A stretch of 64,000 nucleotides of DNA, taken from assembly GCF_963678245.1 (NCBI RefSeq), contig NZ_OY782770.1:434001-498000 (forward strand), written 5' to 3'. This DNA comes from an uncultured Sunxiuqinia sp. Its GTDB lineage: Bacteria > Bacteroidota > Bacteroidia > Bacteroidales > Prolixibacteraceae. The translations under genes and the position numbers were made by a program. The notes under the pieces were generated by a model. It was given only the letters and a program-made list of their open reading frames with translations, was not told the origin of the DNA and ran no database searches. Below, piece after piece: positions 7,092-18,046 of the stretch (positions within the stretch are counted from its first letter, which is position 1; each line of letters begins with the position of its first letter).

Positions 7092-7125
7092 AAAAGCCTC
7101 GAGGTTAAAAAACCTGGAGGCTTTT
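7092..7125. terminator. Bidirectional terminator between ricT and the mevalonate operon
   Basis: AAAGCCTCGAGGTT and AACCTGGAGGCTTT pair with one mismatch across a short A-rich loop, with T-runs on both strands. It serves the convergent ricT (plus) and mevalonate kinase (minus) genes. The stop codon of the latter at 7105-7107 lies inside the stem. Confidence 0.75.
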
Positions 7126-8007
7126 TAATTCTACTGGCAATTTTTTACGATCGGTAACAAAAGCCAATAAGTATCCACCACCGCCAGAGCCTAAAAGCTT
7201 TAGAAATATCCCTTCATCCTGCATTTGCCTCCAAACAGTTTGAAATTCCGCCGGAATCATCTCCCTCATATTTTCAATCTGAAAATTGGAAATGAGTTTC
7301 AATTGCTCAAACAGCTTCTGAAAATTACCGGATAAAAAAGCATTGATAGCTAATTTATTTGCCGGTATAAAAACGTTGTTAAATTGCTTTTTAAATTGAG
7401 GGTTCTTCATTTTTTCCATGAAAAGGCGAACCAAAGGTGACGTTGAACTTTGAATAGCCGTATCAATCAGAAAAACGGAATAGCCGGCTTCTGGGGATGA
7501 GAATGTTGGTAAAGTTATGGCACTGCCCGAAAGCATTACCGGACGGTTGATAAAAGAAGCCAACGGATCGAAGCCCGAGCTTTTTCCATGAAAATAAGAT
7601 TCCATCACCGAAAAATCCTTTTTCAAAACCGATAAAATATTTTTCTTCTTTTTAAGCACATCAAAACTGGCCCGGTACTTTCCATAATGCTCGTAAATGG
7701 CTGCACACAAAGCACCCGAACTGCCAACACCATATTGAAGAGGAATATCTGAATCGAAAAACAATCCTTTTTCTACATCTCGTTGCAGCTCTTCCAGATT
7801 GAGCGGATAGTTCATTTGAAGGTTCAGCTCATGATGAATAAAGTAAGATACAAATTGCTCAAGTTCAGCCTGACTGGCACTGATATCTGCGCCTTCAGAA
7901 AATTCGAGACTCCCTGTAAAATAAGGTAAGGGAACTGCCAATGCTTCTGCACCAAGCATCACCCCATATTCTCCAAATAACATCAATTTGGCATTAAACT
8001 TCTTCAT
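7105..8007 (-). CDS. mvk: Mevalonate kinase (GHMP family)
   Basis: A GHMP kinase of 300 residues that should phosphorylate mevalonate to 5-phosphomevalonate. Visible family motifs are the N-terminal FGEYGVMLGAEALAVPL, the phosphate loop PLQYGVGSSGALCAA near residue 95, FHGKSSGFDPLAS near 150 (substrate and catalytic Asp region), and the C-terminal LLGSGGGGYLLAF. Starts are ATG at 8007 or GTG at 8010; ATG is chosen. The start overlaps the end of the diphosphomevalonate decarboxylase gene by 14 bases, so translation is probably coupled. It is the last gene of the nine-gene operon. The exact substrate among GHMP kinases is inferred from the operon. Confidence 0.87.
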   Translation of the reverse strand: MKKFNAKLMLFGEYGVMLGAEALAVPLPYFTGSLEFSEGADISASQAELEQFVSYFIHHELNLQMNYPLNLEELQRDVEKGLFFDSDIPLQYGVGSSGALCAAIYEHYGKYRASFDVLKKKKNILSVLKKDFSVMESYFHGKSSGFDPLASFINRPVMLSGSAITLPTFSSPEAGYSVFLIDTAIQSSTSPLVRLFMEKMKNPQFKKQFNNVFIPANKLAINAFLSGNFQKLFEQLKLISNFQIENMREMIPAEFQTVWRQMQDEGIFLKLLGSGGGGYLLAFVTDRKKLPVELKSLQVF

Positions 8008-9046
8008 CACTCAGCTTTATTGGTCCATCGCCAATGCAGTCGTCCAGCCAATTTTTATTTTGAGTATGAACCAACAACTCACTATTGATAAAATCATGAA
8101 CTGCTTGCTTATCCTTTTCAAAATAAATCAAATGGATGTTTGGACCTGCATCAATGGTAAAACCAACAGATAAGCCTCTTTGTTGCCGAAATTGACGTAT
8201 TTTTCTGATGATCTCCAAGCTGTTTGGATGCAATAAAATAAACGACGGATCGGAAGTCATCATCATGGCATGCAAACTGAGTGCTTCCTTCTCAATCAAT
8301 TCGAAAAACCGTTTATGATCTCCAATTTTCATTACCTGCAATAACTCCTTCAGGTTTTTGTTCGCCTGAACAATCCGGGCATCTTTAAAATCATGCTGAT
8401 TCATCAGTTCATGCCCGGCCGAACTCGATACTTCCTTTGCTGAAGAGTCAACCAACAAAACTGCATCGCGCAAACTACGATAGTCTCTATGAAATCGATT
8501 TTGAACGGCAACCGCATTGCAATCAGTAGAATCGGCGAATCCGGCAAAACGTCCCCAAAGCGCAAACGATGGAAAAACAGACCGACAAGCACTTCCGCTT
8601 CCTAACCGAGCCCAACGCGATGCCTTTTGAAAAAACTGTTGCTCGGTAAAATTCCTTTGATTGGCCTGCTGTTTCAAATCAACTAGGCAAAGTGCCAATG
8701 CTCCAAATGCAGATGCCGAGGAGGCTATTCCGGTTGAATGCGGAAACGTATTCTTGCTTTCAATATAAAATGAAAAATTATTTAGCCATTCGTGCTCCAA
8801 CGACATACTGGCGAGGTATTTTTCAACCCGCTCGGCAAATGACGAAGGTTGCCCTTCAAATAAAAACTCTACTTTTCGACGAGCAGCAGACTCCATGCGA
8901 ACACTCGTTTTCGTTCGGGCATTTTTCAGGCTAAAGCTCAACGATGGGTTCACCGGCAGTTGAGCCGGCTTTTTTCCCCAGTATTTCACCAATGCTATAT
9001 TTGACGGACATTCCCAAGATGCTCGATAAACCTCTTTTTCTTCCAT
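7994..9046 (-). CDS. mvaD: Diphosphomevalonate decarboxylase
   Basis: The 350-residue enzyme converts 5-diphosphomevalonate to isopentenyl diphosphate with ATP hydrolysis, release of phosphate and decarboxylation. Diagnostic sequences are CPSNIALVKYWGKK near residue 13, FPHSTGIASSASAFGAL near 105 (phosphate loop), ARLGSGSACRS near 150, and TIDAGPNIHLIYF near 300 with the catalytic Asp. ATG at 9046 is chosen over TTG at 9052. It is the penultimate gene of the operon and overlaps the mevalonate kinase start. Confidence 0.95.
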   Translation of the reverse strand: MEEKEVYRASWECPSNIALVKYWGKKPAQLPVNPSLSFSLKNARTKTSVRMESAARRKVEFLFEGQPSSFAERVEKYLASMSLEHEWLNNFSFYIESKNTFPHSTGIASSASAFGALALCLVDLKQQANQRNFTEQQFFQKASRWARLGSGSACRSVFPSFALWGRFAGFADSTDCNAVAVQNRFHRDYRSLRDAVLLVDSSAKEVSSSAGHELMNQHDFKDARIVQANKNLKELLQVMKIGDHKRFFELIEKEALSLHAMMMTSDPSFILLHPNSLEIIRKIRQFRQQRGLSVGFTIDAGPNIHLIYFEKDKQAVHDFINSELLVHTQNKNWLDDCIGDGPIKLSDEEV

Positions 9047-9052
9047 AATCAA

Positions 9053-9976
9053 TTAACGATTATTCAACACCAATTCCTTCCACGGAAAAATTACATGCAA
9101 TCCTTTTGCTTTGAAATACTGAAACACACTGGACTCATTCATTGTTGTAGCAACCAGGTAAAAATCTCCACCCCAAGCTCCGAGCGATTTAATCTCGCCT
9201 TCAAAATCAGCAAAATCAGTTGACTTTACGGTTGGTATATCCAACAGGCCGGAAACCAATTGCTCATGATCAACCATCAGTTGTTGAAATTCATCCAGAT
9301 TTTTGGCCTGTGCCATTTGTTGCGAGATCTCATTGATCATTTCAATTTCAGCTGATGACACCGCTCGTTTATTCATAAAACAACGGACTTCAGCGCGCGT
9401 ACTTTTTTTAGAACCTGAATAAACAAAATAAAGATTGTCTTTAAAGAGATAATCTAGCTTTACCGATTCAACCGCTTCGCCTTTTGTATACAAAATAGGA
9501 CCATCAGCCGACGCGCAGGCGATATCGAAACCAGAACCATTAAATATTTTTTCATTTAGCTGAAAAGGATCAACATCTGCCCACGAAGCCAGATTCGCAA
9601 TTAAAGTGCTGCTGCTGCCTAATCCCCATTGGCTATCAAAATCAATCCTTGTCTGAATTTCCAGCCCACCACGGAGTTGAAAATTTGGATTCATTTGTTG
9701 CATTATTTGTAAGGTATCGCGCAAAATATCGGCTTTTTTGGCATCAGAGCTTTGAATGATTTCCAAATCCGGAAGTCGTAAATCGCAGGAAAACCACAAA
9801 CCATCTGGTGTAAAAGCCTTCCAGTTTAATTCATTTTTTCTGTCGCTGGAACCAACAGTCATGCGTTGACCGTATTTCACTGGCAAAGCGATGGCTTTTG
9901 CTCCCTGAAGCACAAAGTACTCCGCAGTCAGCAATAATTTTCCGTGAGCATAATATGATTCCTGATTATCCGGCAT
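9053..9976 (-). CDS. GYDIA-family GHMP kinase, candidate phosphomevalonate kinase
   Basis: A 307-residue GHMP kinase of the type found in Bacteroidota mevalonate clusters. Motifs: AHGKLLLTAEYFVLQGAKAIALP at the N-terminus, the phosphate loop WGLGSSSTLIANL near residue 115, and NGSGFDIACASADGP near 147. This last is the family's name-giving GYDIA segment, with Phe in place of Tyr. By position between HMG-CoA reductase and diphosphomevalonate decarboxylase it should supply the missing phosphomevalonate kinase step. That function is inferred from context; no orthodox phosphomevalonate kinase is in the window. It overlaps the reductase gene by 11 bases. Confidence 0.8.
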   Translation of the reverse strand: MPDNQESYYAHGKLLLTAEYFVLQGAKAIALPVKYGQRMTVGSSDRKNELNWKAFTPDGLWFSCDLRLPDLEIIQSSDAKKADILRDTLQIMQQMNPNFQLRGGLEIQTRIDFDSQWGLGSSSTLIANLASWADVDPFQLNEKIFNGSGFDIACASADGPILYTKGEAVESVKLDYLFKDNLYFVYSGSKKSTRAEVRCFMNKRAVSSAEIEMINEISQQMAQAKNLDEFQQLMVDHEQLVSGLLDIPTVKSTDFADFEGEIKSLGAWGGDFYLVATTMNESSVFQYFKAKGLHVIFPWKELVLNNR

Positions 9977-11282
9977 GTGTCTTTAAAAAATTCTGCACAT
10001 CGGAAAATGAAACTTCCCGACCTTCAAAATAAAGTCTGGCAGCCTGTTTTTGTTCATCAGAAACCTGCAAAGCATTCAATATATTACTTAAGTGCATCTT
10101 CATATGACCTTGTTGAATGCCTGTCGTCACCAAGGCCCGAACAGCAGACCAGTTAGATGCCAATCCTGAAATGGCAAGGTAAGACATGAGTTGTTTCGCT
10201 GATGGCTGCCCGAGAATTTGCATCGCCAGTTTAGCTAGCGGATGCAAACTGGTTACTCCACCAACAACTCCAACCGCCAATGGCAATTCCAAGCTAAACC
10301 AAAAGTTTCCGTCAGTTATTCCGGCATCGCTCAGCCCACGGTACTTCCCATATTTGGCAGCATAGGCATGACCTCCGGCTTCAATAGCGCGAAAATCATT
10401 TCCTGTAGCAATGGCAAGCGCATCAATGCCGTTAAAAATTCCTTTATTGTGAGTGACCGCTCTGGAAACATCATTCCGTGCAATGTGAACAGCCTGAACA
10501 AACTTCGAGGCAAATAATTGCGACTTTTCGGCATCCGCTTCCAACTTATTTACAGGACATTCAACCCAAACTTTCACACTGCTACCGGGAACGTAGTTCG
10601 ACAGAATGGCCATAATAATTTCCAGTTCTTTTTCTCCCTCGGCAAACGCATCATTTTCGGCAACCCACTTCTTCAATGTCTTTCCAAATTGCTCCAGACA
10701 CGAATTAATGAAGTTAGCCCCCATCGCATCACAGGTTTCAAACGAAACATCCAGCTGATAATAATTGGGAAGCACTTCCGGGAGATAGTTTAGCTCAACA
10801 TCGGAAATTCCTCCCCCGCGCTTGGTCATTTTCTCAGTTAGAGGAGCGGACTCGACGAGAAGCGCCTGTTTGATTTCAGGGAAGAATTTATTCAATTTTT
10901 CATGATCGCCTTTCCACGAAAAATGAACCTGCCCTTTCTTTTCAGTTCCAATAATCTCGGTTCGAAAACCACCTCGTTGCGCCCAATATCCAGCCGCCTT
11001 TGCCAAGGCAGCCACCACCGAGCTTTCTTCGGTTACCAGCGGAAATGTCCTTAATTTTCCATCAACTAAAAAATTTGGAGCAACTGTAAATGGGAGGTGG
11101 TAATTAGACAATTGATTTTCACTCAGGTCTGCAATAATCTCCTGTGTTTTCTCATCAGCTAACTGAAAGGCATCAAGAAATTCTATCGTTTCCTGATCTA
11201 AATGACATTGATCAACCAACCACTGAATTTTATGCTTTCGATCTAATTTCGAGAAACCGCTGATGATTTTACGATCCATCAT
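9966..11282 (-). CDS. mvaA: Hydroxymethylglutaryl-CoA reductase, class II
   Basis: The 438-residue enzyme interconverts HMG-CoA and mevalonate. The class II (bacterial) signatures are visible: VTEESSVVAAL near residue 84 with the catalytic Glu, HNKGIFNGIDALAIATGNDFRAIEAG near 275 with the catalytic Lys and Asp, and GIQQGHMKMHL near 390 with the catalytic His. Class II enzymes were first described in mevalonate degradation, but here the neighbours are kinases and a decarboxylase, so the biosynthetic direction is inferred. It overlaps the isomerase gene by 14 bases and the GHMP kinase gene by 11. HMG-CoA synthase is not in the window. Confidence 0.95.
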   Translation of the reverse strand: MMDRKIISGFSKLDRKHKIQWLVDQCHLDQETIEFLDAFQLADEKTQEIIADLSENQLSNYHLPFTVAPNFLVDGKLRTFPLVTEESSVVAALAKAAGYWAQRGGFRTEIIGTEKKGQVHFSWKGDHEKLNKFFPEIKQALLVESAPLTEKMTKRGGGISDVELNYLPEVLPNYYQLDVSFETCDAMGANFINSCLEQFGKTLKKWVAENDAFAEGEKELEIIMAILSNYVPGSSVKVWVECPVNKLEADAEKSQLFASKFVQAVHIARNDVSRAVTHNKGIFNGIDALAIATGNDFRAIEAGGHAYAAKYGKYRGLSDAGITDGNFWFSLELPLAVGVVGGVTSLHPLAKLAMQILGQPSAKQLMSYLAISGLASNWSAVRALVTTGIQQGHMKMHLSNILNALQVSDEQKQAARLYFEGREVSFSDVQNFLKTHAG

Positions 11283-12282
11283 AATCGGGGTTTAACTTCA
11301 GGTATTGTTTGGCCAGTCGAAATGCTTTCAACTGATTACCAATGTACGTTTTCAGTTCGGGATAATCACCGGTAGCATGCTTTAGTACCGCCGATGCCAT
11401 GCCATAAACAGCAGGTAGCTGACTTAAGGAAGTCAGGTGATAGCCATCCAGGTAATTTTTCAATCCACCTGAAATAATCAACTGACGGCAACCGGGCTCT
11501 CCAATTTCCTGCAACAAGCGATTGACGTCTTTTACCATTTGATGAGCTGACTGACCAACAAAGGCAAATGGCTGGAACATCTCCTGCTGTTCAGGATTCT
11601 CTCGCATCAATTCCAGGTTAGAAAAATTGGTGCCGCCATAAGCAGCAAATTCAATGGCAGCCAACGGAAGTTTCAATAGTCGTTTTAAACTTTCATCGCC
11701 CATCCCCTGCCCTACTTCTTTCACAATCAGTGGAATATAAATACGATCCATTAATCGTTCAATGGTTTCGATCGGAGCATGTTCAATCCGGTCTCCTTCG
11801 GGCTGAAACCACTCCTGCAACGGGTTTACATGAACAATTAAACCATCAGCACGAAGCTCTCCAACCAAGTCAACGATTGCTTTTTCGTTTTTATCTTTGA
11901 GCAATTTCTCGATTTGGGCAATTCCTAAATTGGCCCATAAAGGTTGATCAGGGCCAATGGTTTCGCGCATATCAAAATCGGCCCATTGTGTTTTATCAAA
12001 TAATATTTTTCGGCATGACCCCAGTCCCATTCCAAATCCAAATTCGCGACAGGCCTGCGCAATATTTTTATTAATTTTTTCGGCTACTCCGGTACCTCCT
12101 GTCATACTGGAAACCCAAAACGGAGCCCGAACCATTTTCCCCAAAAACAAAAACGAATCATCCTCTTCCTTCGGATGACCGGCTAGCATGGGTTCATAAA
12201 TAAATCGTTTGTCTTGCTCAGCAAAATCGGTTTGCGAGTCAAAAGCGAGTTGAATATGGTCTAGTTTGCGGTCTTTAGTCAT
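11269..12282 (-). CDS. fni: Type 2 isopentenyl-diphosphate delta-isomerase
   Basis: The 337-residue FMN- and NAD(P)H-dependent enzyme interconverts IPP and DMAPP. It has the TIM-barrel hallmarks of the type 2 family: SSMTGGTGVAEKIN near residue 58 (FMN site), GMGLGSCRKIL near 82, NLGIAQIEKL, IVHVNPLQEWFQPEGD near 150 (with the metal- and substrate-binding Asn and Gln), VKEVGQGM near 186, and AAYGGTNF near 213. Its gene lies 2 bases after the acyl-CoA dehydrogenase gene and overlaps mvaA. It marks the junction where the operon passes from acyl-CoA to isoprenoid enzymes. Confidence 0.95.
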   Translation of the reverse strand: MTKDRKLDHIQLAFDSQTDFAEQDKRFIYEPMLAGHPKEEDDSFLFLGKMVRAPFWVSSMTGGTGVAEKINKNIAQACREFGFGMGLGSCRKILFDKTQWADFDMRETIGPDQPLWANLGIAQIEKLLKDKNEKAIVDLVGELRADGLIVHVNPLQEWFQPEGDRIEHAPIETIERLMDRIYIPLIVKEVGQGMGDESLKRLLKLPLAAIEFAAYGGTNFSNLELMRENPEQQEMFQPFAFVGQSAHQMVKDVNRLLQEIGEPGCRQLIISGGLKNYLDGYHLTSLSQLPAVYGMASAVLKHATGDYPELKTYIGNQLKAFRLAKQYLKLNPDYDGS

Positions 12283-12284
12283 TT

Positions 12285-13442
12285 CTATTCCTTTAGTATT
12301 GAACGAGAAATAACCATGCGCAGTACTTCGGAAGTTCCCTCACCAATAGACAATAAGCGTTGGTCACGGAAAAAACGTTCAATTGGATATTCGTCATTTC
12401 GGAATAAACCAGCGCCACCAAAAATCTGCAAAGCCTCACTAGCAATATCGCTGGCTATCTGCGAACAGTATAACTTCGCCATAGCTGCCTGTATTCCATA
12501 ATCATGGCCATTATCTTTTAACCAACAAGCATTATAAAGTGTATTCCGCGCTGTTTCCAGTTTCATTGCCATGTCTGCTAATTTAAACGAAATTACCTGA
12601 AAATCAGATATACTTTTCCCAAACTGCTTACGTTTTTTCGCAAAACCCACCGCCATTTCGTATGCCCCCTGAGCCAAACCAAGTCCCATTGCAGCAATTG
12701 ACAAACGCCCCGAATCGATGGTTTTAAGCATAATTTTAATTCCCTGTCCGCGCGCTCCCAAACGATCACTATCCGGAATGTGCACATCTTTCAAATACAC
12801 CATGCCATTGTCTGCAGCACGCCACAACAGCTTTTGCTTCATAAATTCGCGCGTGTAACCTTCCGTTCCTTTGGAAACCAAAAAGGCTGTAAACTCTTTG
12901 CGTCCATCTTCCCGAGTTCCGGTTTTTGCCACAAAGCTAATTCCGGCTGACATTTCAGAAGCGCCATTGGTGATGTATTTTTTATGACCATTAACCACCC
13001 AGCCGTCTTCTTTTTCTTCGGAAATCGTTTCAACTCCCTGAGCATCCGATCCGGCATTTTCTTCAGTTAAACCAAAAGCCCAAAGATTTTCAGCAGTACA
13101 AAGCGAAGGGAGATATTTTGCTTTTTGTTCTTCAGTACCAAATTCCATAATTGGACCAACCCCCAACGAGTTATGAGCTGCCAATGTTGCTGCCACCGAG
13201 CTATCTACCCGGGCAAGCTCCTCAACGGCAATAATGTAGGATAAATAATCACTATCCTGCCCCCCGTATTTTTGGGGAGCGTGCATACCAAAAAGGTTCA
13301 AACTTTTCAGCGAACGGATTAGCTCAACAGGAAACTGTTCATTGGCCTCAAACTCCCCAATTACAGGCTTAATGTATTTCTCTGAAAAGTCTCTCACCTC
13401 CGATCGCAGAGTATGATGAGTCTCGTTTAAAAATGCGTTCAT
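12285..13442 (-). CDS. Acyl-CoA dehydrogenase (candidate branched/short-chain, LiuA position)
   Basis: The 385-residue flavoenzyme contains the usual N-terminal helical, middle beta and C-terminal helical domains. FAD-binding sequences LTEENAGSDAQG (near residue 130), KKYITNGA (155) and FGGAGLFRNDEYPIERFFRD (345) are present. The general base appears to be Glu in IGEGTSEVLRM near residue 368, as in short- and medium-chain enzymes. In isovaleryl-CoA dehydrogenases this place is Ala or Gly and the base Glu lies earlier, where this protein reads TIDSGRLSIAA. Operon context suggests isovaleryl-CoA to 3-methylcrotonyl-CoA, but the residue pattern fits butyryl- or 2-methylbutyryl-CoA as well. The gap to the carboxylase gene is 18 bases. 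Confidence 0.88.
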   Translation of the reverse strand: MNAFLNETHHTLRSEVRDFSEKYIKPVIGEFEANEQFPVELIRSLKSLNLFGMHAPQKYGGQDSDYLSYIIAVEELARVDSSVAATLAAHNSLGVGPIMEFGTEEQKAKYLPSLCTAENLWAFGLTEENAGSDAQGVETISEEKEDGWVVNGHKKYITNGASEMSAGISFVAKTGTREDGRKEFTAFLVSKGTEGYTREFMKQKLLWRAADNGMVYLKDVHIPDSDRLGARGQGIKIMLKTIDSGRLSIAAMGLGLAQGAYEMAVGFAKKRKQFGKSISDFQVISFKLADMAMKLETARNTLYNACWLKDNGHDYGIQAAMAKLYCSQIASDIASEALQIFGGAGLFRNDEYPIERFFRDQRLLSIGEGTSEVLRMVISRSILKE

Positions 13443-13460
13443 ATTGATTCTTCTGTTTTC

Positions 13461-15434
13461 TTATGATTCTAAATCAACCAATAACTCTTTATCTTGCACA
13501 ATATTACCTTTGGCAATATGTATATTTTTAACCACAGCATCGGACGGACTTTGTATGGTGAACTCTGATTTCATCGACTCAATAACGAGCATATTCTGTC
13601 CTTTATGCAACTGATCTCCCGGCTTCACAAATACGTCAATTACTTTACCAAACAAGTCTGCCACGACTTTATCTATCTTCACTTCTGAGGAAAAAGCTCC
13701 TGATTTATTCAATTGTACCTGATTCAATACCTGATTGCTTTGTAAGCGATATTTTCTATTTCTATAATGAACCAACGTAAACTCTTTCTCTTCGGAAATA
13801 AAGATAGCAATATCTACATCATTTATTCTAAAACAAATTTTTGGTCCAATAATTTGATAATGATTTAATTTACAAGTCGTTTCACCCCAAATTAATTGGA
13901 GTTCACTTGTTTTTTTAACGACTTTAATCCGATAACTTTCTTCTTCAATTTTGATATTAAAAAGCTGCAAAAGTCGCCAATAGCCTGTTCTTCTCCAAAC
14001 ATCTGCGTCAGTTTCTGGCCGATAAAAATGGTGCAGCAAAAATGCTGCAAGCAATTCAATAGCTGGCAACTGGCTGTCATCTTCTACGATGCTGCTAACA
14101 AGCTCGGGCAAATTGCCTTCAGCCCATCGCGTATGAATTTTATTTTCAATGAAATCAGTGGTCCGCAAAATTTGGTTTAAAAACTCTTGATTCGTAATAA
14201 TTCCTCCCAAATACAGTTGTTCCAACGCCCCACTCGTTTTCTCAATGGCCAATTGACGTGAATTGCCATGAATGATCAGTTTTCCCAAAAGCGAGTCGTA
14301 ATTGGGTGACAAGTGATTGCCTGTTTGCAAAAAGCTATCCCAACGAACATTTTCAGGAATGCACAGTCCACGCAAAGTACCCGAAGTTGGTCTGAAATTA
14401 TTCGATGGATCTTCAGCACAAATTCGCAATTCAATGGCATGTCCATTGGCTGAAATATCTGATTGCTCAAAAGTCAGTTCTTCACCTGCCGCAATTTTCA
14501 ACTGCCATTCTACCAAATCAACTCCGGTGATTACCTCCGTAACCGGATGCTCCACCTGTATCCTGGTATTCATTTCCAGAAAATAGAAACCTCCCTGATC
14601 ATCAACCAAGAACTCGATGGTTCCTGCACCACGGTAGTTAATTGCATAAGCAATTTTTAGAGCAGCCTCAAATAACTTCGCCCTTGTTTCTGACGAGATT
14701 GAAGTGGACGGAGCCTCTTCAATTAGTTTTTGGTAGCGGCGCTGAATACTGCATTCGCGCTCCAGTAGATGAATGGCTTTTCCTTTACCGTCTCCCAACA
14801 CTTGCACTTCGATGTGACGTACCTCTGGTAAATATTTCTCAACAAAGAGTTCATCGTTTCCAAAATACTGCTGCGCCTGACGCTGCGCCTGCTCCAAAAC
14901 CGCAGCGAATTGTTCCGGTTTGTGGACAACTTCCATCCCTTTTCCACCACCACCTCCTGATGCTTTTACCAATACTGGGAATTCAAGTTTATTGCGCTGG
15001 GTCAGAATTTCATCAACAGTTCCCTGCAAGCCGGAGATCACCGAAACACCAAGCTTCTTGACAAATTCAATCGCTTGTGTTTTTTCGCCCATCAGTCGAA
15101 TTTGATGCGGAGTAGCACCAACGAACGACAAGCCCGCTTTCTCAACTCGCTCAGCAAAAGATGCATTTTCTGATAAAAAACCATAGCCCGGATGAATGGC
15201 ATTAGCGCCGGTTTCGTTAGCAATTTGAATGAGCTTATCTTGATTTAGGTAAGTTTCGCATAACTGATTTCCAGGCAATAAAAATGCTTCATCGGCTTCT
15301 GAAACGTGCAATGAATTGGCATCATCGGCAGCATAAACCGCCACGGTCTTGATCCCAAGCTCTTTCGCAGTCCGAATAACCCGAACAGCAATTTCAGCCC
15401 GATTAGCAATTAATATTTTATGGAATCGCCTCAT
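13461..15434 (-). CDS. mccA: Acyl-CoA carboxylase alpha subunit (biotin carboxylase plus biotin carrier), probably 3-methylcrotonyl-CoA carboxylase
   Basis: The 657-residue protein combines an ATP-grasp biotin carboxylase (residues 1-450) and a C-terminal biotinyl domain (about 585-657). Seen: glycine-rich loop KASGGGGGKGMEVV, active-site FLEMNTRIQVEHPVTEVITG and the biotinylation site VIESMKSEF with Lys622. The usual Met after the Lys is Ser here. It carboxylates biotin and hands the carboxyl group to the beta subunit encoded at 16253. The poorly conserved stretch at 450-585 matches the BT (subunit-contact) region of MCC and PCC alpha chains. It overlaps the hydratase gene by 4 bases. Substrate assignment rests on the neighbouring genes. 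Confidence 0.9.
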   Translation of the reverse strand: MRRFHKILIANRAEIAVRVIRTAKELGIKTVAVYAADDANSLHVSEADEAFLLPGNQLCETYLNQDKLIQIANETGANAIHPGYGFLSENASFAERVEKAGLSFVGATPHQIRLMGEKTQAIEFVKKLGVSVISGLQGTVDEILTQRNKLEFPVLVKASGGGGGKGMEVVHKPEQFAAVLEQAQRQAQQYFGNDELFVEKYLPEVRHIEVQVLGDGKGKAIHLLERECSIQRRYQKLIEEAPSTSISSETRAKLFEAALKIAYAINYRGAGTIEFLVDDQGGFYFLEMNTRIQVEHPVTEVITGVDLVEWQLKIAAGEELTFEQSDISANGHAIELRICAEDPSNNFRPTSGTLRGLCIPENVRWDSFLQTGNHLSPNYDSLLGKLIIHGNSRQLAIEKTSGALEQLYLGGIITNQEFLNQILRTTDFIENKIHTRWAEGNLPELVSSIVEDDSQLPAIELLAAFLLHHFYRPETDADVWRRTGYWRLLQLFNIKIEEESYRIKVVKKTSELQLIWGETTCKLNHYQIIGPKICFRINDVDIAIFISEEKEFTLVHYRNRKYRLQSNQVLNQVQLNKSGAFSSEVKIDKVVADLFGKVIDVFVKPGDQLHKGQNMLVIESMKSEFTIQSPSDAVVKNIHIAKGNIVQDKELLVDLES

Positions 15435-16240
15435 GAATTTTCAATCACGTTTAAATTTTGCCAATCCGGCTTTCTTTTTTCCAGAAACGCTCTCAATCCC
15501 TCCTGACCTTCGTCCGACTGAATAAGATCGGCTAAAATTGCAGCAGTATGTTCACTGCTGTCTATGCCATATTCATTCGAATCTACTTTCAATAACAATT
15601 TTTTACAAGCTTTCAAGGCATTGGGAGACGATGACTTCAGCCTGCTAATTAATTCCGCAACCACTTGTTCCAACTTCCCATCGTCCGCCAAAAAATCAAC
15701 CAGACCAATCAGATGAGCCTCGGGAGCCCAAAATCGATCACCCGAAAACATCAGCTTTTTCATATTTTGAATTGAAACACGCTTGGCGACGAAAGGAGTA
15801 ATAGTTGCCGGAACGATACCTAACTTAATTTCGCCAAAAGCAAAAGCTGTTGAACGTTCAGACACCGCAAAGTCACAAGCAGCAACAAGTCCGTTTGCTC
15901 CACCCAACACATTTCGATGGGCGGCAGCAATCGTAATTTTTGGGAACTGATAAAGCTGTTTCAGCAGCTCTGCTATCCTTAAATACTCCTCCCAATTATC
16001 CGACTTTGCCTTATCGACCGCACTGGCAAACCAACTGATGTCGGCTCCGGCGGAAAACGATTTTCCTTCACCTGAGATAACCAAGAAATGGATATCATCT
16101 TGCAAAGCCAAGTCAGCCAAAGCGCGATGCATCTCTTCAATCATGTATGGATTCAGGGCATTATGAATCTCTGGACGGTTCAATATTAAATTAGCCCGAT
16201 GACCATCAACTTCTATTTTTATGTATTTTTTGTTTTCCAT
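15431..16240 (-). CDS. Enoyl-CoA hydratase/isomerase, candidate methylglutaconyl-CoA hydratase
   Basis: The 269-residue crotonase-fold protein carries the CoA oxyanion-hole segments ISGEGKSFSAGADISW near residue 57 and AHRNVLGGANGLVAACDFAVS near 110, followed by FGEIKLGIVPATITPFVAK. Placed between the two carboxylase subunit genes, it should hydrate 3-methylglutaconyl-CoA to HMG-CoA (LiuC/AUH role). The Glu expected in the first active-site position of classical crotonase is replaced within NVLGGANG, as is common in the methylglutaconyl-CoA hydratase group. Function is inferred mainly from context. It overlaps the downstream carboxylase gene by 4 bases and lies 12 bases after the upstream one. 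Confidence 0.82.
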   Translation of the reverse strand: MENKKYIKIEVDGHRANLILNRPEIHNALNPYMIEEMHRALADLALQDDIHFLVISGEGKSFSAGADISWFASAVDKAKSDNWEEYLRIAELLKQLYQFPKITIAAAHRNVLGGANGLVAACDFAVSERSTAFAFGEIKLGIVPATITPFVAKRVSIQNMKKLMFSGDRFWAPEAHLIGLVDFLADDGKLEQVVAELISRLKSSSPNALKACKKLLLKVDSNEYGIDSSEHTAAILADLIQSDEGQEGLRAFLEKRKPDWQNLNVIENS

Positions 16241-16252
16241 TATTTCCCTTTT

Positions 16253-17818
16253 TTACATTCTGAAAACGCCATAATGGGGATTTCGTTTAGGCTGATTAAG
16301 CGTAACCGTAAAAGCAAGTGCCAGGATATCACGAGTTTCAACAGGATCGATAATCCCATCGTCCCACAATCGTGATGAGCTATAATAAGCAGTGCTTTCA
16401 TTTTCAAACTGTTCAACTAAGCTATTCTCCCTTCCATTCTTTCCGATGGTTTGTATCACACCCGAAGCCTGTTCGCCACCCATTACCGCAATTCGCGAAT
16501 GGGGCCACATGAAAAGGAAATCGGGATCGTACGCGCGGCCGGCCATCGCATAATTACCTGCTCCGAAAGATCCGCCGATAACAAGCGTGATTTTGGGCAC
16601 CACAGAGTTAGCAACAGCATTGATTAATTTAGCGCCATCGCGGGCAATACCTTCGTGTTCGTATTTCTTGCCGACAATAAAGCCGGTAATATTCTGCAAA
16701 AACAACAATGGAATCTGACGTTGATTGCAAAGCTGGATAAAGTGAGCACCTTTTCGTGCGGCTTCAGCTGTCAAAAAGCTCTGATTTCCGACAATCCCGA
16801 TTGGCATACCTTTTAAACGGGCAAAACCAGTAATCAGTGTTTTTCCATAATTGACTTTAAATTCCTGAAAATCGCTGTTGTCAACCAGGTGGTCAATAAT
16901 TTTGTGCACCGGAATTGGCTTTTTCAAATCAGTCGTCAGATAACTATAAATATTTTCCGCTGGAAATCTGGGAGCTCGGGTGTTCTTAATTTCAACATCC
17001 TGCTTGGAGGCCATGGGTAACTTGTCGACAATTGACCGGCAAATTTTTACGGCATCTGCATCATCTTCAGCCAAATGGTCGGCCACTCCCGAAATTGATG
17101 TATGAACATCTCCGCCTCCCAGTTCTTCGGCTGAGACCTCTTCGCCCGTCGCTGCCTTCACCAAAGGTGGTCCTCCAATAAAAATAGCTCCTTGTCTTTT
17201 AACAATGATGGTTTCGTCACACATGGCCGGCACATAAGCACCTCCCGCTGTGCAGAATCCCATTACAATCGCTATTTGAGGAATCCCGTCAGCCGACAGT
17301 TTTGCCTGATTGTAAAACACCCGGCCAAAATCAAATCGATCGGGAAAAACGCTGGCTTGTTGCGGGAGAAATATCCCTCCTGAATCAGCCAAGTAAATGC
17401 AAGGAAGCTTGTTTTTCAATGCAATTTCCTGGGCTCGAACATGCTTTCGAATAGTTTCCTTAATGTATGTTCCACCTTTCACCGTCGCATCGTTCGCGAC
17501 AATCATGCACTCACGTCCATTTATAACTCCAAGGCCGGTTACAATGCCAGCCGATGGAAATGAATTATCGTATTGATCGTATGCGGCAAATGTGGAAAGT
17601 TCCAAAAAAGGGGTTCCCTGATCAACAAGGATATCGATACGCTCACGAGCCAATAATTTTCCTCGTTCACGATGTTTATGAACCGCCTTTTCTGATCCAT
17701 GATTACAAACTTGACTTAACCGTTGGTAAAAATCATCAACTACCAACTGATAACCAATAGGTTTATCTTCATGAACCTGCAAATGCGAATCTATTTTATC
17801 TTGTTGAGCTTTACCCAT
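16253..17818 (-). CDS. mccB: Acyl-CoA carboxylase beta subunit, probably 3-methylcrotonyl-CoA carboxylase
   Basis: The 521-residue carboxyltransferase has two crotonase-like halves. Segments typical of MCC beta are NDATVKGGTYIKETIRKHVRAQ, IYLADSGGIFLPQQ, GFCTAGGAYVPAM, GGPPLVKAATGEEVSAEELGGGDVH, and in the second half NITGFIVGKKYEHEG, GSFGAGNYAMAGRAYDP and WPHSRIAVMGGEQA. It transfers the carboxyl group from biotin to 3-methylcrotonyl-CoA. ATG at 17818 is chosen over TTG at 17833. This is the first gene of the nine-gene unit. A 213-base gap separates it from mtaB, and the promoter is not obvious: the best minus-strand box, GAATTTTG near 17870, matches only 7/8. Confidence 0.92.
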   Translation of the reverse strand: MGKAQQDKIDSHLQVHEDKPIGYQLVVDDFYQRLSQVCNHGSEKAVHKHRERGKLLARERIDILVDQGTPFLELSTFAAYDQYDNSFPSAGIVTGLGVINGRECMIVANDATVKGGTYIKETIRKHVRAQEIALKNKLPCIYLADSGGIFLPQQASVFPDRFDFGRVFYNQAKLSADGIPQIAIVMGFCTAGGAYVPAMCDETIIVKRQGAIFIGGPPLVKAATGEEVSAEELGGGDVHTSISGVADHLAEDDADAVKICRSIVDKLPMASKQDVEIKNTRAPRFPAENIYSYLTTDLKKPIPVHKIIDHLVDNSDFQEFKVNYGKTLITGFARLKGMPIGIVGNQSFLTAEAARKGAHFIQLCNQRQIPLLFLQNITGFIVGKKYEHEGIARDGAKLINAVANSVVPKITLVIGGSFGAGNYAMAGRAYDPDFLFMWPHSRIAVMGGEQASGVIQTIGKNGRENSLVEQFENESTAYYSSSRLWDDGIIDPVETRDILALAFTVTLNQPKRNPHYGVFRM

Positions 17819-18046
17819 GTTGTCGTTAAACAAATTAAAAAAGGAAAATCTCTTACTATGACAAAATTCTAGGCTATTGGTTCACATAAACCGCCACTTT
17901 TTGTTTTTTTGAAGATCGAATCCGAACCCTAATTTTTTCTTTACTTTCGTTCAAACTGAATATACTTTTGAGAAGAAATTAAGTTGTAGGCTTAAATTGG
18001 CTCAATAAATTAAACTCTGACAAAAGTATTAAAATTTCAATTCGGC

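Follow-up and report, generated by a model that had tools for sequence, protein, structure and literature searches.

Where does HMG-CoA (3-hydroxy-3-methylglutaryl-CoA) come from in bacteria that carry an HMG-CoA reductase (HMGR) and no recognisable HMG-CoA synthase? Textbook mevalonate biosynthesis begins at acetyl-CoA and proceeds via this synthase. The question is raised by DNA of an uncultured Sunxiuqinia sp. (Prolixibacteraceae, Marinilabiliales, Bacteroidota), here called the window, which is the whole stretch of 64,000 nucleotides that was analysed (contig NZ_OY782770.1, positions 434,001 to 498,000). On its minus strand, at 7105-17833, nine co-directional open reading frames (ORFs) encode, in order of transcription, the beta subunit of a 3-methylcrotonyl-CoA carboxylase (MCC)-type enzyme, a crotonase, a carboxylase alpha subunit, an acyl-CoA dehydrogenase, a type 2 isopentenyl-diphosphate (IPP) isomerase, a class II HMGR, a GYDIA-family kinase, a decarboxylase and a mevalonate kinase. 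We suggest with considerable confidence that this operon is one metabolic line, which would lead from leucine-derived isovaleryl-CoA to IPP and dimethylallyl diphosphate (DMAPP).

Layout and conservation of the operon

The nine genes are separated by gaps of -17 to +18 bases (12, -4, 18, 2, -14, -11, 0 and -17 with the longest starts), and the -17 overlap becomes -14 if the kinase begins at the ATG beside its GTG. The original prediction of nine tightly packed co-directional genes at this place is borne out by the ORF calls and the family matches. Its packing stands, and its limits need a small correction: the upper end that it gave, 17818, is an ATG, the longest start is a TTG at 17833, and the overlaps reach up to -17.

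Our sample of the family holds 120 genomes, the window's own included, of which 92 are good genomes, meaning at least 90% complete with at most 5% contamination. The HMGR domain PF00368 is present in 69 of the 120. One of these (G041) has only a different type of reductase, which leaves the operon type in 68. Tangfeifania (L077) is another bearer of the operon. For the count of gene order, stretches of at most 20 kb with the reductase inside were taken from 58 of these 68 genomes; the count omits the window's own genome, G106, G109, G111, G112 and the fragmentary G079, G084, G091, G117 and G119, together with the loci of the other reductase type (L038, L054). A complete nine-gene set in the same order occurs in 44 of the 58 loci, and these 44 represent 11 genera. 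Two further loci lack only the isomerase and 12 are partial, mostly cut by contig ends; the order is broken in none. It is kept while identity to the window drops, gene by gene, to values between about 32 and 66%. The comparison with relatives that was proposed with the prediction thus finds more conservation of gene order than chance would give.

Two side observations concern these loci. The isomerase is undetected between the dehydrogenase and HMGR in L023, L034, L036, L047 and L056, and L034, L047 and L056 are the genus g17 loci that lack it. Another, quite different HMGR occurs in L001, L002 and L003 (genomes G041, G071 and G099), with 388-405 bits to PF00368; its surroundings (L038 for G041, L054 for G071) hold no operon genes.

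The two halves of the operon also occur together across the family. We counted as MCC-beta orthologs the proteins with at least 59% identity, the paralogs among the matches listed having at most 35%. Of the 120 genomes, 62 have both the operon-type HMGR and an MCC-beta ortholog, 6 the reductase only, 3 the carboxylase only and 49 neither. For the 92 good genomes the counts are 50, 2, 1 and 39 (Fisher p 2e-22, relatedness ignored), and the three exceptions (G048, G094, G060) are explained by contig ends. Over 46 loci, pairs that are close in MCC beta also tend to be close in HMGR (r 0.94 between the pairwise identities); four proteins were compared in this way, and their other pairings gave 0.87-0.93. 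Such correlated identities point to joint inheritance of MCC beta and HMGR, be it vertical or not, the flanking genes lying outside this comparison.

Searches for HMG-CoA synthase, HMG-CoA lyase and the MEP pathway

The C-terminal domain of HMG-CoA synthase (PF08540) was detected in none of the 120 family genomes, the window's own included, and in none of the 92 good ones. The N-terminal domain (PF01154) was detected in none of 76 genomes, of which 59 belong to the family and 49 of those carry the operon-type reductase. As a control, 395 Bacteroidota genomes were searched with PF01154: 38 have a match, which exceeds the cut-off in 28 (one barely). Four Bacteroidota synthase proteins that were scanned have both Pfam domains and score 255-271 bits to the prokaryotic synthase model TIGR01835, whose cut-off is 360. 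A divergent synthase overlooked by the profiles was considered and, given the two domains and the positive control from within the phylum, rejected for any protein whose fold the profiles can reach.

For HMG-CoA lyase, no protein in the 120 family genomes, again with the window's own, exceeds the 246-bit cut-off of model NF004283. Among the weak matches listed, the frames are mostly of about 500-560 amino acids (aa), with some of 350-420 aa and one of 273 aa (G040, 46 bits); by eye, two of the top three weak loci look to be of the 2-isopropylmalate-synthase type. The absence of synthase and lyase that was claimed for the window thus holds for the whole genome and the family sample, within what PF08540, PF01154 and NF004283 can detect. 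A normal synthase gene (mvaS) and a lyase gene elsewhere in the genome would have spoken against the original prediction, and neither was found. Since neither enzyme is detected, HMG-CoA has one recognisable source and one recognisable outlet, both in the operon.

A different explanation is that the two modules merely lie side by side, by chance or for shared regulation, and that a lyase missed by our search removes the HMG-CoA. All 120 family genomes do give weak matches to the lyase model, and six Flavobacteriaceae genomes outside the family have lyase-like proteins of 184-204 bits, so the cut-off of 246 bits alone is not decisive. The best family score, however, is 61.6 bits in a frame of 532 aa, far under 184-204, and an order kept in 58 of 58 loci at identities down to about 32% is not what mere co-location would lead one to expect. 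We regard this explanation as highly improbable.

The methylerythritol phosphate (MEP) pathway was followed through IspG, the sole MEP gene tested, which is present in at least 114 of the 120 family genomes, the window's own included. In most genomes among the matches listed, the PF04551 match to IspG is split in two inside a single frame of about 620-640 aa, which amounts to a long insertion; in G003, G022 and G025 it matches in one piece over the whole length. Because IspG is present, leucine is unlikely to be the sole source of isoprenoids in Sunxiuqinia.

Enzymes of the two halves

The coordinates and family matches of the nine genes are collected in Table 1. Among solved structures, the best match of MCC beta is human MCC beta (645 bits), followed by four entries, bacterial or unspecified, at 624-631 bits. 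One of these is a Pseudomonas-type MCC and two, at 624 bits, are named propionyl or acetyl/propionyl carboxylase. Such names carry little weight, because carboxylases of this kind are often misannotated, as the available text of PMC4673880 warns. Lower scores go to other MCCs (about 544 bits), to geranyl-CoA carboxylase (430) and to the rest of the propionyl-CoA carboxylases (274 at most). According to the same text, Jurado and others distinguish MCC beta from geranyl-CoA carboxylase by a Phe in place of Gly, with a three-residue insertion preceding it (PMC4673880). This Phe (the Phe191 equivalent) is F169 in the window and is present in 51 of 51 family rows, counted, like all residues here, in one set in which each genome was entered once; outside the family it is found in 23 of 24 distinct rows, the remaining one (L197) having Gly. 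The alpha subunit has human MCC alpha as its best solved match (457 bits). Judged by its sequence, the carboxylase is therefore of the MCC class and not of the geranyl-CoA type, and the scores and the Phe do not bear out the reservation, made with the original prediction, that it might act on propionyl- or geranyl-CoA.

Table 1. The nine genes of the operon in order of transcription, with positions in the window
Product	Position	Strand	Matches and starts
MCC-type acyl-CoA carboxylase beta (3-methylcrotonyl-CoA carboxylase, carboxyltransferase)	16253..17833	-	PF01039 478 bits; start TTG 17833 or ATG 17818
Crotonase, predicted 3-methylglutaconyl-CoA hydratase	15431..16240	-	PF00378 145 bits
Carboxylase alpha (biotin carboxylase + biotin carrier)	13461..15434	-	PF00289, PF02786, PF02785, PF00364
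Acyl-CoA dehydrogenase, short-chain type; predicted isovaleryl-CoA dehydrogenase from context	12285..13442	-	PF00441, PF02771, PF02770
Type 2 isopentenyl-diphosphate isomerase	11269..12282	-	TIGR02151 196 bits (cut-off 281); 1vcf 110 bits
Class II HMG-CoA reductase	9966..11282	-	PF00368 269 bits; 7n7s 434 bits
GYDIA-family GHMP kinase, predicted phosphomevalonate kinase	9053..9976	-	NF040656 329 bits (cut-off 225)
Diphosphomevalonate decarboxylase	7994..9052	-	TIGR01240 180.6 bits (cut-off 171.35); 3lto 136 bits
GHMP kinase, predicted mevalonate kinase	7105..8010	-	TIGR00549 65 bits (cut-off 163)

The crotonase is best matched by the solved structures 3i47 and 4kpk, with the isohexenylglutaconyl-CoA hydratase 4zu2 (AtuE-type) at 125 bits, and its scores lie under the NCBIfam cut-offs. 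It probably groups with the Pseudomonas-type LiuC/AtuE proteins, and its place in the operon suits a 3-methylglutaconyl-CoA hydratase. Of 56 family rows, 55 have its Glu137 and one reads X. This enzyme also matches the gamma-carboxygeranoyl-CoA hydratase model (198 of 426 bits), and an AtuA-family gene stands in a cluster of Ancylomarina described below; both would suit a carboxylase branch that handles an acyclic terpene or another branched acyl-CoA, as in the geranyl-CoA type, and recycles prenyl chains. We find this extremely unlikely. The diagnostic position holds Phe, not Gly, throughout the family rows, the score to geranyl-CoA carboxylase is 430 bits against 645 to MCC, and AtuA relatives are absent from the window and from the other Prolixibacteraceae loci examined, a search of these loci and not of whole genomes. 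A geranyl-CoA carboxylase was accordingly ruled out as a candidate, on the Phe and the match scores.

The dehydrogenase is the weakest assignment. Its best match is an acyl-CoA dehydrogenase at 309 bits, and entries named isovaleryl-CoA dehydrogenase reach only 213-237 bits, so an enzyme of the canonical isovaleryl-CoA dehydrogenase type was set aside; isovaleryl-CoA as its substrate is suggested by the gene context. Thus, for the proposed gene set from isovaleryl-CoA to HMG-CoA, the MCC class is supported and a dehydrogenase of canonical type is not.

Two neighbourhoods bear on this context. Genus g16 has, in 13 of its 14 loci, a gene for a fused E1 alpha/beta 2-oxo-acid dehydrogenase of 806 residues directly upstream of MCC beta, the aligned pieces lying 12 to 101 bases apart (the E1 match is in two pieces in L025). 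An example of the resulting ten-gene operon with E1 at its head is L046:17260-19680, and 12 further g16 loci are alike. The natural reading of an E1 beside MCC is a role on keto-isocaproate, and this position supports the leucine reading of the dehydrogenase despite its weak assignment. The second is a relative, G141 (the genome of locus L112), whose operon runs from MCC beta (59% identity) through a crotonase (38%) and a biotin protein to a dehydrogenase (57%) and continues with an aminotransferase, an acetoacetate-CoA ligase (over its cut-off) and an HMG-CoA lyase (190 of 246 bits), i.e., what appears to be leucine degradation with its usual ending. Since beta subunit, hydratase and dehydrogenase stand with a catabolic ending in G141 and with a mevalonate ending in Prolixibacteraceae, the comparison supports the assignment of the dehydrogenase. 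The third gene of G141 (L191:9395-11581, 728 aa) was considered as an MCC alpha and excluded by a domain scan: it has PYC_OADA, HMGL-like and biotin domains and no biotin carboxylase domains. The pairing looks like a transcarboxylase-type MCC that would draw its carboxyl from a keto acid such as oxaloacetate and not from ATP and bicarbonate.

In the mevalonate half, the family assignments of HMGR, the GYDIA kinase and the decarboxylase are firm on their matches. Classical mevalonate genes for the reductase, mevalonate kinase, decarboxylase and isomerase appear to be present, with the reductase, kinase and isomerase scoring under the NCBIfam cut-offs. HMGR reaches 243 of 260 bits; its positions E85/E86, K280, D296 and H393, which we take to be catalytic, do not vary across 62 family rows, apart from a gap at H393 in one of them, nor across 67 rows from outside the family. 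All four solved matches of the mevalonate kinase at E<=0.01 are mevalonate kinases (best 2x7i, E 6e-11), and the solved relatives of the isomerase are isopentenyl-diphosphate isomerases. For the GYDIA kinase, the sequence search of solved structures gave chance matches only, and a structure model was therefore built (pLDDT 92.9). Mevalonate kinases are its nearest folds, and the first thirteen also include phosphomevalonate kinases and a galactokinase. Because these matches are mixed, the substrate depends on context, from which we infer that the enzyme is the phosphomevalonate kinase of the pathway.

The best NCBIfam match of HMGR is the degradative NAD model. This would fit a flow in the reverse direction, in which HMGR would oxidise exogenous mevalonate to HMG-CoA, and dehydration and decarboxylation would turn this into isovaleryl-CoA as a primer of iso-branched fatty acids, the use made of HMG-CoA in myxobacteria. 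Iso-C15:0 is indeed reported as a major fatty acid in five Carboxylicivirga strains of the same order, in the accessible part of PMC12325347. However, with kinase, decarboxylase and isomerase genes in the same operon, mevalonate is bound for IPP; ATP normally drives MCC toward carboxylation; and an E1 dehydrogenase stands at the operon head in one genus. Myxobacteria use a separate decarboxylase, AibAB, and a decarboxylase of this type is not in the operon, where alone it was looked for. We consider reverse flow very unlikely.

Around the operon, mtaB and a MiaB-like radical-SAM gene lie upstream on the same strand and a PSP1-domain gene lies downstream on the opposite strand. These flanking genes look ordinary and vary between genomes. 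The closest named relative of the HMGR is that of Sunxiuqinia indica (92% identity; records of the window's own genome may have been excluded from this comparison). A scan of the operon for promoters and terminators gave counts below the shuffle means (18 vs 22.5; 10 vs 11.5) and was not used, the promoter type scanned being presumably the wrong one for Bacteroidota.

The proposed route, its reach and its relation to known systems

We propose that the dehydrogenase would convert isovaleryl-CoA to 3-methylcrotonyl-CoA, that MCC alpha and beta would carboxylate the gamma carbon to give 3-methylglutaconyl-CoA, and that the crotonase would hydrate this to HMG-CoA. HMGR would then form mevalonate, which mevalonate kinase, the GYDIA kinase (as phosphomevalonate kinase) and the decarboxylase would convert to IPP, and the isomerase would supply DMAPP. 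A catabolic module would thereby be put to biosynthetic use. In the established chemistry, MCC carboxylates a methyl carbon of 3-methylcrotonyl-CoA, and after hydration the new carboxyl ends up as the free acid group of HMG-CoA and then as C1 of mevalonate; the thioester carbon of HMG-CoA becomes C5, and the decarboxylase takes off C1. Since the carboxyl added by MCC is the one lost at the decarboxylase, the five carbons of isovaleryl-CoA would be the five of IPP and the carboxylation would be traceless. Leucine carbons 2-6 are thus expected to appear as an intact M+5 unit. Each IPP would cost four ATP and two NAD(P)H, with a gain of one reduced flavin. We infer the substrates, the direction of flow and the physiological role: beside the MEP pathway, the route would probably be a second supply, drawn on in times of ample amino acids or of impaired iron-sulphur enzymes in the MEP pathway.

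Several points weigh against this proposal. With a MEP pathway probably present, the need for the operon is not obvious, and the absence of the operon-type reductase from 52 of the 120 family genomes indicates that the operon is dispensable. A synthase of another fold would be invisible to the profiles used, and the window's genome (4.87 Mb, 11 contigs) is 97.8% complete. The dehydrogenase is nearest to short-chain enzymes, and in all 60 family rows the canonical place of the catalytic base holds Glu; isovaleryl-CoA dehydrogenases place the catalytic base at another position. No mevalonate kinase was detected in L035 and no crotonase in L065, even at E 0.001. The operons of genus g17 are split or partial, and in L026 and L051 the upper genes lie apart from the reductase. 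Contig ends do not account for L035, L065 and these g17 loci. The E1 gene is found in none of 34 loci from other genera in which 1200 or more upstream bases are available, and it scores similarly to pyruvate and branched-chain types. Finally, because the alpha place in G141 is held by a different biotin protein, that parallel covers three of the four genes only.

Genomes outside the family that bear this HMGR suggest how far the route may reach. Among these, all 17 that were searched for both synthase domains have an MCC-beta homologue at 45-61% identity. Neither synthase domain was detected in any of the 17, six Flavobacteriaceae included, and IspG is missing in 15 (genome completeness is not stated for them, and L087 is excluded). 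With seven more genomes searched for MCC beta and IspG only, MCC beta is present in 24 of 24 and IspG absent in 22 of 24. The fifteen without synthase domains and without IspG are G127-G132, G134-G140, G142 and G143 (Bacteriovorax-like, Flavobacteriaceae and others). Six Halobacteriovoraceae, Oligoflexia, Bacteriovoracaceae and Bacteriovorax genomes have the order isomerase-HMGR-GYDIA kinase-decarboxylase-mevalonate kinase and an MCC beta of 55-59% identity; in five of these predator-type genomes a lyase exceeds the cut-off, and in the sixth the protein is incomplete. The six Flavobacteriaceae have HMGR beside the GYDIA kinase, an MCC-beta homologue of 46-47% and the lyase-like protein under the cut-off. 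Ancylomarina euxinus (G133) has IspG, no synthase domains and no lyase match at E 1e-30; its genes form one cluster of dehydrogenase, isomerase, HMGR, GYDIA kinase, decarboxylase and mevalonate kinase, and a separate one of MCC beta, crotonase, MCC alpha, AtuA and dehydrogenase. The AtuA-family gene of the latter (L190:14525-16321; PF07287 458 bits), which has a ferredoxin-like domain, lies between MCC alpha and the dehydrogenase. It might be the missing lyase-like enzyme there.

Genomes of this kind must make HMG-CoA somehow, so that either many more bacteria use the leucine route or HMG-CoA has an unseen maker. The latter could apply to Prolixibacteraceae as well: a non-homologous synthase would make HMG-CoA, and the MCC genes would merely add leucine degradation alongside. 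The 17 genomes with neither synthase domain detected, 15 of them without IspG, favour such an enzyme, which would leave unexplained why MCC beta and HMGR occur together in one operon and why the lyase is missing. We hold it to be quite unlikely for the operon. As to the leucine route, it is a tentative idea, which we doubt more than we trust, that the Bacteroidota and Bacteriovorax-like predators with this HMGR and without synthase and IspG make all their isoprenoids from leucine or its keto acid via MCC. It is equally tentative that the Prolixibacteraceae operon is the case in which gene order reveals this wider route. Part of the Bacteroidota does have the synthase, as the PF01154 control shows, and a lyase or lyase-like protein is present in 15 of 24 genomes, a count that includes seven Prolixibacteraceae with none. 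According to the available text of PMC4026382, moreover, phosphomevalonate kinase is the sole known mevalonate enzyme missing from Elizabethkingia and Flavobacterium branchiophilum, which have no MEP enzymes. Mevalonate genes have been associated with predatory bacteria and explained by access to acetoacetyl-CoA of the prey, according to the accessible part of PMC4451040. If true, the wider reading would recast this link as use of prey leucine, which we offer as a suggestion only.

The leucine-to-isoprenoid chemistry is itself already known, and the trypanosomatid and myxobacterial precedents cited with the original prediction are confirmed by those parts of the literature that were accessible. 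Trypanosomatids route leucine to sterols via HMG-CoA, and knock-out of the dehydrogenase in T. brucei abolishes leucine incorporation (PMC5993337, in part). Synthase and lyase genes are reportedly missing from Blastocrithidia nonstop, as they are from Leishmaniinae (PMC10874023, in part). The trypanosomatid route has isovaleryl-CoA dehydrogenase, MCC and a hydratase leading to HMG-CoA and then mevalonate, which is here predicted from genes, and the operon genome is like that type in having HMGR with synthase and lyase undetected. In contrast, that route is eukaryotic and mitochondrial, its genes are not in an operon and T. brucei retains a synthase gene. To our knowledge, no MEP pathway exists alongside it.

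The myxobacterial link between leucine and mevalonate is, like the operon, bacterial; we know of no fused leucine/mevalonate operon in myxobacteria. In Vitiosangium, d6-dimethylacrylic acid was incorporated into a sesquiterpene with shifts of +5, +10 and +14 Da, and 13C-acetate gave no significant shift (PMC7321100, in part). In Myxococcus, the HMG-CoA synthase MvaS is tied to the making of isovaleryl-CoA, as titles in the reference list of PMC9636800 indicate. The operon family differs in that its genomes have no detected synthase, so the synthase-fed decarboxylating reverse route is not matched. The Liu (leucine/isovalerate utilisation) operon shares dehydrogenase, MCC and hydratase with the operon but ends in HMG-CoA lyase; here the lyase is undetected and mevalonate genes occupy its place. 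The mevalonate pathway of Flavobacteriaceae has the same HMGR type with the GYDIA kinase adjoining, and differs as described in that here the synthase is undetected, IspG is present and the MCC genes are fused into the operon. In the open-licence literature, we found no published case of a bacterial operon that fuses both modules in genomes without synthase and lyase.

The mevalonate pathway that starts at acetyl-CoA is stated, in the available text of PMC9636800, to be independent of branched-chain amino-acid degradation. If our proposal is true, the operon would represent a third natural bacterial entry to isoprenoids, beside acetyl-CoA and pyruvate/glyceraldehyde phosphate, in which five carbons are kept and the loss at the lyase is avoided. 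It would also be a ready gene set for the conversion of leucine or isovalerate to terpenoids. It offers an answer to the origin of HMG-CoA in HMGR-bearing bacteria without a recognisable synthase.

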